Below, in pieces: positions 1-29,645 of a stretch of DNA of 64,000 bases (its first letter is position 1; every line of letters begins with the position of its first letter). The stretch spans positions 1 through 64,000 of the forward strand of contig OMZM01000002.1 of the NCBI GenBank assembly GCA_900315545.1, given 5' to 3'. The notes below the pieces were generated by a model. It was not told the origin of the DNA and did not search any database. It saw nothing but the letters and a program-made list of their open reading frames with translations. This stretch comes from an uncultured Prevotella sp. (GTDB taxonomy: Bacteria; Bacteroidota; Bacteroidia; Bacteroidales; Bacteroidaceae). Both the position numbers and the translations under genes were made by a program.

Positions 1-270
1 CTTGCGAAACATTGTGTCTGAGAGTCCCAAACACTATGTTTGGCATCCTCAAACAGTGTGTTTGACAATGTCAAACATGCTCTTTGACAATTTTAACACA
101 TCTGTTTCTTGCATAAATTCAACATGTTTCAAGATAACAAACTGATTGTCAGAGAATTACAAGCACATGCGAAATACGGGCGTATTTTGCCCCTAAGATT
201 TCGGAAACGACTTTCGCGGGCATTCTCGCGACAGTAAACGGGCGAAAATTGATTAGTGTTTTTTCTTGCC
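1..270 (+). repeat. Intergenic repeat element, copy A (5' truncated by window edge)
   Basis: This is one of four related non-coding elements in the window (A here, B 7438-7884, C 14661-15105, D 29240-29645). A and D share one orientation, B and C the other. Only the right core arm (71-97) and the right flank are present, because the window opens inside the core. Positions 61-75 hold the palindrome tttgacaatgtcaaa. The right flank carries a short hairpin around aaatacgggcgtatttt (174-190) and ends near the conserved gcgacagtaaacggg (229-243). Alignment by eye to the reverse complement of copy C is close over nearly the whole stretch. No convincing coding sequence. Confidence 0.85.
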
Positions 271-7437: not shown

Positions 7438-7884
7438 AATCAATTTTGGCTCGTTTACTGTCGCGAGAATGCCCGCGAAAGTCGTTTCTGAAATCTGAGG
7501 GGCAAAATACGCGAGTATTTCGCGTGCATTTGCAATCGCCTGACAATCAACTTGTTATCCCTGAATATACGCTTTGTGTGCATAAATTGTATATGTTAAA
7601 ATTGTCAAAGAGCATGTTTGACATTGTCAAACACACTGTTTGAGGAGGTCAAACATAGTGTTTGGGGCTCTCAGACACAATGTTTTGCAAGCCAAAATAC
7701 GCATAAAATCGCCTCAAACATACTCTTTGACAATTTTAACACTTGTGTCTGGTCTCGAAATTAACACATTTTTGCAGTTTCGGAGGCTAATTTTTTTCTA
7801 TTTGGAGAGTTTTCCTCTGTCAAAATTTTTCATCATTTTTCGGCTTGAAGGAAAATTCTGATGAGTTTGGCACGGTTTTTGTAG
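7438..7884 (-). repeat. Intergenic repeat element, copy B (complete)
   Basis: Copy B fills the gap between the convergent genes mtnN and queG. The core is bounded by inverted 27-bp arms at 7595-7621 and 7714-7740 (26 of 27 bases complementary), each containing ttaaaattgtcaaagag. Inside are further short palindromes, including tttgacattgtcaaa at 7617-7631. The left flank holds the hairpin aatacgcgagtatt (7506-7519) and cgtttactgtcgcgagaatg. The right flank holds ctatttggagagtttt and ctgatgagtttggcacg. It is inverted relative to copies A and D. There is no transposase and no obvious target-site duplication. Confidence 0.88.
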
Positions 7885-14472: not shown

Positions 14473-14660
14473 GTTTATTTGTAGTAAAGAAAAGGCTTTT
14501 CGGAGTTAATTAACATTAAAACAGGCTATTTTGTTTCTCGTATTGCATGCCGACGGTTGTATATCGCCGATGCAGTGTTTCCATCTGCGGTTTGTAGCTT
14601 TTCGTCTGCTTTCCGATTATGTTTGTCGAGTCTTTCTTTGTTTCTCGGTAAGAAAAATGA

Positions 14661-15105
14661 TAATCAATTTCAGCCCGTTTACTGTCGCAAGAATGCCCTC
14701 GAAAGCCGTTTCTGAAATCGAAGGGGCAAAATACGCGAGTATTTCGCATGTGCTTGTAATTCTCTGACAATCAGTTTGTTATCTCGAAATATGTTGAATT
14801 TATGCAAGAAACAGATGTGTTAAAATTGTCAAAGAGCATGTTTGAGATTGTCAAACAGTGTGTTTGAGGAAGTCAAACATAGTGTTTGGGAGTGTCAGAC
14901 GCAGTGTTTCGCAGGGCAAAAACGCGAAATAGGCGCGTCAAACATGCTCTTTGACAATTTTAACAGTTGTGTCTGGTCTGGAAATTAACAGATTTTTGCA
15001 GTTTCGGAGGCTATAAAATTTCTATTTGGAGAGTTTTTCCCTGTCAAAATTTTTCATCATTTTTCTGCTCGAAAGAAAATTCTGATGAGTTTGGCACGTT
15101 TTTTG
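14661..15105 (-). repeat. Intergenic repeat element, copy C (complete, perfect arms)
   Basis: Copy C has perfect 27-bp inverted core arms, 14819-14845 and 14938-14964, and is collinear with copy B over its full length: cgtttactgtcgc at the left, the aatacgcgagtatt hairpin (14731-14744), the core, then tgcagtttcggaggct, ctatttggagagttttt and ctgatgagtttggcacg at the right. Its right end abuts the stop codon of the yqaA-like gene (15106-15108). The 687-bp gap 14419-15105 otherwise holds only the promoter of the secreted-protein gene. Confidence 0.88.
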
Positions 15106-15558
15106 TTAGAAGAAAAATCCAGCCAGGTATAGCAGCACTGCATATCTGAATGCCTTGCCTATGAATGTGCTCAGCGCCGTGATGAAATGGTCAGCGTGCA
15201 TCAGTCCGAGCACGACGGAAATGGCAGAGCCCAGCACTGGCAGGAACGTCAGCAGTCCCATCCATGCTCCGCGTCCGTGAACAAATCGCTGTGCACGCTC
15301 TATTTTCTCTGGTTTTATGCGCAGGTAGCGCTCTATCCATTCAACCTTTCCAAGCCGTGCCACATAGTAGTTGAGCATCGTTCCTGCCCAGTTGCCTATG
15401 GTGGCATAGATGGCGAGAGGCAGAGGCTTTAGCCCCACAGCCACCAGTCCGACCATGACAGCCTCGCTGCTGAACGGAAAGATGCTGCCTGCGACGAATG
15501 CCGATATCAGCATTCCCCAGTAGCCGTAGTTTATAAGTTGCTCAATATACCACTCCAT
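15106..15558 (-). CDS. YqaA/DedA-like small membrane protein
   Basis: A 150-residue membrane protein starting at the ATG at 15558 (MEWYIEQLINYGYWG). The longer frame upstream overlaps the neighbouring gene in another frame and is a shadow. It resembles YqaA/SNARE-associated (DedA-related) proteins: an early GSIFPFSSEAVMVGL loop, an NYYVARLGK segment and a GRGAWMGLLTFLPVLGS re-entrant-type motif around residue 105. DedA relatives act as lipid scramblases or transporters; the role of the YqaA branch is unknown. The start lies inside the end of the preceding gene (28-bp overlap), so the two are probably translationally coupled. Confidence 0.8.
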   Translation of the reverse strand: MEWYIEQLINYGYWGMLISAFVAGSIFPFSSEAVMVGLVAVGLKPLPLAIYATIGNWAGTMLNYYVARLGKVEWIERYLRIKPEKIERAQRFVHGRGAWMGLLTFLPVLGSAISVVLGLMHADHFITALSTFIGKAFRYAVLLYLAGFFF

Positions 15559-29239: not shown

Positions 29240-29645
29240 TTGTTCGAAAATATGAAAAATTTTGACAGGGCAAAACTCTCCAAAGAGATGTTAACAACTG
29301 TTTGATACAGTAAAATAGTGTAAAAATAAGTGCCGGCGCTAATTGTTAAAATTGTCAAAGAGTATCTTTGAGACGCCTGTTTCGTCCTTTTTGCAAGGCA
29401 AAACACAGTGTATGAAAGCCTCAAACACTATGTCTGACACCCTCAAACAGTGTGTTTGACAATGTCAAACATGCTCTTTGACAATTTTAACACTGTCAAT
29501 CCGTGTGCTAATTTGCATGTTTTGAGGCTATCGCATTGACATTCAGGGATTTAAGCCGTTATGCGAAATACTCGCATATTTTACTGCCGAAATCGTCGAA
29601 GTGGCTTTCGACGGCACTCACGCGACAGTAAAAATTAATCATTCC
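29240..29645 (+). repeat. Intergenic repeat element, copy D (diverged)
   Basis: Copy D has the same orientation as copy A. Core arms are 29343-29369 and 29463-29489 (2 mismatches in 27). The palindrome tttgacaatgtcaaa is at 29453-29467. The left flank (tgaaaaattttgacag, aaactctccaaagag) corresponds to the inverted right flank of B and C, and the right flank ends with gcgacagtaaaaattaatc (29622-29640). It is the most diverged copy outside the core. It fills most of the 881-bp divergent gap 29052-29932. The rest of that gap (29646-29870) shows nothing I can assign. Confidence 0.82.

Follow-up and report, generated by a model that had tools for sequence, protein, structure and literature searches.

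Dispersed intergenic repeat families are an already known kind of sequence, and the element described here belongs to that kind. Its closest published relative, set beside it by description, is PINSR of Prevotella intermedia. In the text available of the PINSR report, the repeat is intergenic and non-coding, measures 188 bp and is present in 177-184 copies per genome; it has no terminal inverted repeats, its authors set it apart from MITEs, and its function is given as unknown (PMC4755523). The same text has about three-quarters of the PINSR sites common to two strains (PMC4755523), consistent with copies that stay in place instead of moving. Compared by description only, our element is likewise found in Prevotella, intergenic, present in high copy number, non-coding and devoid of terminal inverted repeats. 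It differs in its length of about 455 bp, against 188 bp for PINSR, and the available PINSR text mentions neither a 22-bp array nor a rule of spacing nor a test of selection (PMC4755523).

A second relative is the BrickBuilt MITE of Porphyromonas gingivalis, for which the text available describes 19 copies, a 23-nt unit (AGAYCATARTATCCTCTCRTRTG) and IS5-family-like terminal inverted repeats (PMC4596501). Both are intergenic elements of Bacteroidales with a tandem array (PMC4596501, same text), whereas the unit step of our element is 22 bp, the unit sequence is another one, and no terminal inverted repeats were seen. REP/BIME sequences, as far as described in the text available (PMC2817692), also form many intergenic palindromes per genome with composite copies, and they bind proteins. 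In contrast to them, the element is constrained to about 455 bp and phased at 22 bp, and no Y1/RAYT gene was found in its host.

The matS sites of MatP, the ram sites of RacA and the Noc-binding sites are many short palindromes across the chromosome, and they work free of orientation. They are short single or clustered sites, unlike the arrays of our element. In the literature searched there was no report of 22-bp arrays or of even spacing in Prevotella. Measured against that literature, three properties of the element appear to be new: its even spacing, a fixed 22-bp frame in which the units can be swapped, and selection on each copy.

The element in the window and in the host genome

The window, a stretch of 64,000 nucleotides from an uncultured Prevotella sp. 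(GenBank GCA_900315545.1, contig OMZM01000002.1, positions 1 to 64,000), had been predicted to hold four collinear copies of an intergenic element within 30 kb, with copies B and C in one orientation and A and D in the other. A repeat search combined with a profile search of the 64 kb bore this out, with the orientations as given, and the profile refined the limits of the copies. The features are as follows.

1..260, minus strand: copy A, nhmmer profile match to model positions 2-261; right part absent, cut by the contig start
7435..7884, plus strand: copy B, full length (profile and sequence)
7594..7621, plus strand: left arm of copy B, inverted repeat of 28 nt, 96% (1 mismatch)
7605-7621, plus strand: palindrome slot 1 of copy B, TCAAA-N7-TTTGA, inside the left arm
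7627..7643, plus strand: palindrome slot 2 of copy B, TCAAACA-CAC-TGTTTGA, at +22 bp, in highly conserved columns
7649..7665, plus strand: palindrome slot 3 of copy B, at +44 bp (sequence)
7671..7687, plus strand: palindrome slot 4 of copy B, more variable, at +66 bp (sequence)
7714..7741, minus strand: right arm of copy B, inverted repeat and last palindrome slot, at +109
7867..7882, plus strand: right end of copy B, TTGGCACGGTTTTTGT, outward pointing, resembling a sigma-54 -24/-12 site (motif search)
14656..15109, plus strand: copy C, full length, arms at 14819-14845 and 14938-14964 (profile)
15091-15106, plus strand: sigma-54-like end of copy C (motif search)
29246..29641, minus strand: copy D, variant without the last ~50 bp and without the sigma-54-like end, arms at 29344-29371 and 29465-29492

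The inverted arms of the original prediction were also present, with 1 mismatch in copy B and 2 mismatches in copy D (28 nt, 93%), and those of copy C sit within a 35-nt inverted pair of 91% identity. They do not bound the element, however, as they lie internally, at about columns 164-191 and 285-312 of a 460-column alignment. Likewise, the count of four holds for those 30 kb but not for the family, which is genome-wide; the refuting outcome named with the prediction, a total of four copies, thus did not occur.

The 2.29-Mb, 56-contig host assembly (92% complete) contains at least ~137-143 copies. The profile found 136 of them with nhmmer (132 loci and the window), 104 of full length and 15 cut by contig ends; the range adds seven further places and subtracts possible halves of one copy, and it is given as a range because contig-end cuts may count one copy twice. 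The list was built from the matches listed, and contigs 34-56 may hold more copies. A list based on motifs comprised 145 places, 138 from four merged searches and seven from a fifth, three of which were lone right ends without the element (L067 and L068 on contigs 6 and 7, and L156 on contig 29). The 18-bp arm motif GTTAAAATTGTCAAAGAG had 276 matches in the genome at ≤2 mismatches, and its reversed control had 0, an excess well outside chance expectation.

The element is about 455 bp long, and 92 of the 104 full-length copies measure 450-459 bp (range, 431-476). Its left block reads TAATCAATTTT...GTTTACTGTCGCGAGAATGCCC...GGGGCAAAATA and is followed by a short CTGACAGTCAG palindrome and then by the core; 3' of the core come TCTATTTGGAGAG...CTGTCAAAATTTTTCAT and the right end, TTTGGCACGGTTTTTGC. 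Simple repeats of the type GGGAACGTTAACG adjoin the right flanks of the copies in L175, L176, L071, L189 and L139, and are also found at the left flank in L184 and beside the lone right ends L067 and L068, as if they were a further portable module.

The core is a row of palindromes on a 22-bp frame

The core consists of about five 17-bp palindromes placed at 0, 22, 44, 66 and 110 bp, with conserved flanks of greater length on either side, and the arms are the outer members of this row. Slot 0 is TCAAA-N7-TTTGA, within the left arm, and slots 22, 44 and 66 are of the type TCAAACA-NNN-TGTTTGA. The distance between the outer slots was 110 bp (5 x 22) in 82 of the 113 copies measured and 109 bp in 21; the other 10 gave neither value, in seven cases as the search halted at the next slot (22). 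Between the arm motifs the distance was 110 or 111 bp in 111/113 copies. Matches to the unit site were confined to the element, with 482 inside copies and 0 outside in 688 kb of the host genome.

The frame accommodates other units. Seven host copies, interspersed among the ordinary ones, carry units of the type TTACAAG-CAT-CTTGTAA at 22-bp steps, with the flanks and the right arm of the family unchanged. We rejected the idea that the core inverts between its arms: none of the 113 cores fitted copy B better when reversed, and even the lowest difference favored the forward direction. At a smaller scale, copies B, C and others differ in the direction of the 3-5 bp centers of single palindromes (ACACT/AGTGT; CATAG/CTATG), as though individual units flipped.

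Copies keep a distance from one another

The neighboring genes of the 136 copies are convergent in 24 cases, divergent in 32, tandem in 58 and incomplete in 22; this analysis counted ORFs of ≥110 aa with an overlap of <30% with the element. An ORF spans 13/136 copies, each of 72-155 aa, and we read these as chance.

We compared the distances between neighboring copies with uniform placement on the contigs, using contigs of ≥10 kb and the matches listed only, and merging places <150 bp apart (contig 33). Only 2 of 93 gaps were shorter than 6 kb, against 34.9 expected, and 10 were shorter than 8 kb, against 43.7 expected; none of 5000 simulations gave values as low. With the three lone right ends included, which had produced two small gaps of 1.7 and 5.0 kb, and with two of the places from the fifth search absent, the counts were 3/92 and 11/92, respectively. 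Beyond 6 kb the gaps were near exponential (CV of 0.88; the histogram and the CV include the three lone right ends), and the pattern is therefore one of an exclusion zone, not of a ruler.

Two pairs break the exclusion, at 330 bp and 3.8 kb, with one truncated member in each. The clearest exception is the first, at G000:C17:146696 and 147026 (L082), where the two copies are in opposite orientations. Gene size is an unlikely cause of the exclusion zone, since the ORF list of the window has intergenic gaps every few kilobases. Deletion between direct repeats was rejected as a cause, as gaps of <9 kb joined copies of opposite orientation in 10 cases and of the same orientation in 11.

Copies appear to be under selection where they sit

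Full-length copies have diverged widely by substitution and hardly at all in length: among the 5356 pairs of the 104 full copies, the median was 107 substitutions and 1 indel event. The minimum in the pairwise table was 0.396, because it takes in the seven variant-unit copies. We asked where the closest copies differ, leaving out the columns between two conservation cut-offs. In the 9 closest disjoint pairs (≥90% identity), 11 differences fell in 148 conserved columns, where 219.8 were expected at equal rates, and 209 fell in 142 variable columns, with 1 indel. Changes in conserved columns are thus depleted ~20-fold between the closest pairs. The same held for 9 further pairs at 86-90% identity (16 versus 389 expected) and 12 at 82-86% (35 versus 640 expected).

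Because changes in conserved columns are depleted and indels are nearly absent, the copies seem to be individually maintained, under purifying selection where they sit. A lineage that moves at high frequency and is tested at every move may instead have left such a record, but it would not predict a length lock across the whole element.

Arrays in other genomes

With copy C as the query, 4 of the other 59 genomes gave a match. The best of these, and the one match of appreciable size, covers 159 bp at 80% in G005. What remains of the element in that genome is its right half (L195:6854-8597), located a few hundred bases from an IS-like pair of ORFs that by eye resembles an IS3-type transposase.

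In G174, a MAG of Prevotella sp. Tb.RUG.131 (L240), a homologous element carries other units (GTAATATGATAGCTTTTAC plus 3 bp). Of 232 candidate places 40 were scored, and 20 of these matched over most of the query; a two-unit pattern had 122 matches, against 0 for the control. By eye, 20 further array loci comprised 14 solo arrays without common flanks, the element-like L303 and L307, and L304, L312, L313 and L315, which have a GTTAAGAAAACTTTAC tail in common that in three cases follows a terminator-like hairpin.

These arrays are spaced as well. The 88 arrays considered, a subset drawn from 100 of the 122 pattern matches and from the scored 40/232 candidates, gave 33 neighbor gaps. The smallest gap was 9,036 bp, so that among the matches listed none was below 9 kb, against 16.1 expected under a null that set the last array as the end of each contig. 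Fourteen of the gaps join the full-element class to another class, and the smallest of these, among the arrays listed, is 10.6 kb. As mixed-class pairs and solo arrays are also spaced, the spacing belongs to the arrays and not to the ends of one transposon. Over the two genomes, neighbors stay at least about 6-9 kb apart, with few exceptions.

Traces of the family extend further within the genus. The anchor AAATACGCGAGNATTTCGC was present in 6 of 150 same-genus genomes. Inspected by eye, G014 and G012 show, besides the host genome, palindrome arrays of the same kind; G093 has a large palindrome and no clear 22-bp row, the element in G001 is a shorter hairpin, and the match in G102 looks like a chance match within a gene. 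In G014, 13 of 21 matches span ≥369 of the 410 query bases. Among named loci, Hoylesella saccharolytica L241 and P. illustrans L244 are examples that carry the anchor together with arrays; among the 16 named stretches, no array was seen in L231, L234, L236, L238 and L242. Two same-genus loci matched named records in sequence, L205 of G012 with L244 (Prevotella illustrans A2931) and L203 of G093 with L237 (uncultured Prevotella RUG413), which points to Prevotella as the genus.

We also took 200-kb samples of two single-contig congeners picked without prior knowledge of arrays. Lags 22 and 44 were the commonest tandem lags in both G016 (7 and 6 sites) and G024 (3 and 4 sites), where the median of all lags was 0, and 200 kb of E. 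coli K-12 had 0 and 0 sites at these lags. An example of the units of congener arrays is GGGTAAT-NNN-ATTACCC. In G016, the third species, the smallest distance between arrays was 4.2 kb in the 200 kb, at a density too low for a spacing test. The G024 sample also contains, at ~85-91 kb (L330), a repeat that recurs 88-89 times in steps of ~65 bp, which is probably a CRISPR array.

The positions of the arrays are largely particular to each species. A gene near a host copy was matched by 13 of 179 flanking ORFs, and two neighboring genes were shared at one locus (L241/L137); the idea of array positions common to species was accordingly rejected, since it holds for that one locus only. With positions mostly unshared, copies come and go on the scale of the genus.

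Weighing the explanations

The original prediction had offered three readings: a supercoiling or structural element, a MITE-like element moved in trans, and a non-coding RNA family. The structural option fits best, because the copies space themselves, though this falls short of proof. On the sequence evidence, we tentatively propose that the copies could well form arrays for protein binding, distributed across the genome and maintained by the host, that act at the level of the chromosome, in its architecture or topology.

A mobile element is an unlikely explanation. Target immunity is a property of Mu and Tn7, and a non-autonomous element moved in trans by an unseen transposase or recombinase that binds the 22-bp sites could be kept apart in the same way. 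The sharp lower limit at 6-8 kb, followed by a tail that looks exponential, is the distribution expected under immunity. High copy number in one species only, with 5 of the 60 genomes searched matching and the host among the 5, agrees with it, as do positions mostly not common to other species. Nevertheless, conservation falls on internal sites and indels are nearly absent throughout the element, and the scarcity of changes between the closest pairs suggests that selection acted once copies had inserted. Nor did the ends look like those of a transposon: no terminal inverted repeat was seen when the left end, TAATCAATTTT..., was compared by eye with the right end, ...TTTGGCACGGTTTTTGC. As to target duplications, no k-mer of length 2-8 exceeded the 95% point of shuffles in 92 copies, and old ones may have decayed. 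The Y1/RAYT transposase (Y1_Tnp, PF01797) had 0 matches in the host genome (92% complete) and was present in 5 of 14 control genomes, which led us to reject a REP/RAYT system; the predicted lack of a transposase holds for the Y1 family genome-wide and for nine genes of the window (Pfam; two of them without any match). The best pair identity of 94.7% argues against a recent transposition burst, and the single spacing rule of G174 holds across full elements, solo arrays and a third class of flanks. Taken with the purifying selection, these results disfavor the MITE. A phage or plasmid origin was rejected as well, copy B having no match in phages or plasmids at an E value of 1e-5, and no exact match to the arm was found in viral contigs.

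The right end, TTTGGCAC-N4-TTTTG, resembles the consensus of a sigma-54 -24/-12 promoter, and the element might be a sigma-54 control unit, with the palindromes as an enhancer array and the right end as the promoter. The right end TTTGGCACRN3TTTGC/T is conserved, the GG of the -24 box being kept in 114 of 116 right ends in agreement with the -24/-12 motif; the motif has 119 matches in the genome at ≤1 mismatch, against 0 for the control, and the genome encodes a sigma-54 factor. Nine right-end sites lay outside copies in the DNA examined, four of them exact (L067, L068, L156 and L184). The one at L156:2800 (G000:C29:24316) stands alone, directly 3' of the stop codon of a gene that by eye resembles the end of dnaE, and may perhaps be a genuine promoter of the next gene. 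The direction of the copies, however, is random with respect to the neighboring genes: in tandem gaps, 31 copies are co-oriented with the genes and 27 opposed, and the right neighbor is co-directional in 72/128 (p = 0.18). Across the family, then, no direction bias that would betray the driving of an adjacent gene was found. Moreover, fourteen copies exist without the right end, and the G174 elements do not keep it in the same form. Because copies ignore gene direction, we do not read the family as promoters, and a control unit of this kind is improbable. The conservation of the sigma-54-like right end weighs against the binding-array reading, which does not account for it, as do the largely unshared positions, the near-exponential gaps beyond 6 kb, the two close pairs and the 4.2-kb distance in G016.

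It also appears quite improbable that the family is ancient and non-functional, its conservation being the product of gene conversion between copies. In favor of exchange, linkage between variable columns drops near background within ~25 bp, the mean r2 falling from 0.149 at 1-3 bp to 0.028-0.029 beyond 50 bp (permuted, 0.021); each copy is therefore a mosaic or has long had a history of its own. Conversion would nevertheless homogenize all columns rather than spare 148 and leave 142 highly variable, and it leaves the spacing unaccounted for.

A structured non-coding RNA or DNA hairpin family is very improbable: the units are palindromic and the arms complementary, but RNAalifold gave compensatory changes at 0 of 57 predicted pairs in 47 copies (46 of the 92 regular full copies, taken every second, and copy B), two variable arm positions were unable to pair, wobble allowed, in 35/63 and 43/63 copies, and no Rfam family reached its gathering threshold. 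A scan of mutual information gave mostly short-range signals; the strongest pair of columns (160-163) does swap TA for CG, at a distance of 3 columns, too close for a stem.

A proposed model for the putative binding arrays

Returning to the binding arrays, we suggest how they might work. A sequence-specific dimeric DNA-binding protein would occupy the palindromes side by side, on one face of the helix and cooperatively, and the flanks would place further proteins. The complex would then act locally on the chromosome, as a boundary of domains or supercoils, as a loop anchor or as a loading site for an organizer protein, and might serve supercoil insulation, looping or segregation. An array roughly every ten kilobases would benefit the cell, and a second one nearby would add no benefit. 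Between species, the recognized sequence would drift or be swapped, and the 22-bp frame would be kept. It is possible, if rather doubtful, that the arrays represent an undescribed chromosome-organizing system of Prevotella, made of centromere-like, 22-bp-phased arrays that selection keeps at least several kilobases apart around the whole chromosome, with a recognition sequence that can be swapped, being different among species and present in two versions in one genome, and a geometry that is fixed.

Repeats scattered between genes are commonly interpreted as remnants of transposition. The family described here is evenly spread, locked in length and selected copy by copy, and a second species has the same spacing with a different unit. 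This suggests that the cell needs the arrays, perhaps for the organization of its chromosome. If the arrays do organize it, Prevotella, which is abundant in the gut and the rumen, has a distributed system of DNA architecture that can be mapped and excised, and the function-less PINSR repeats would gain a testable role.
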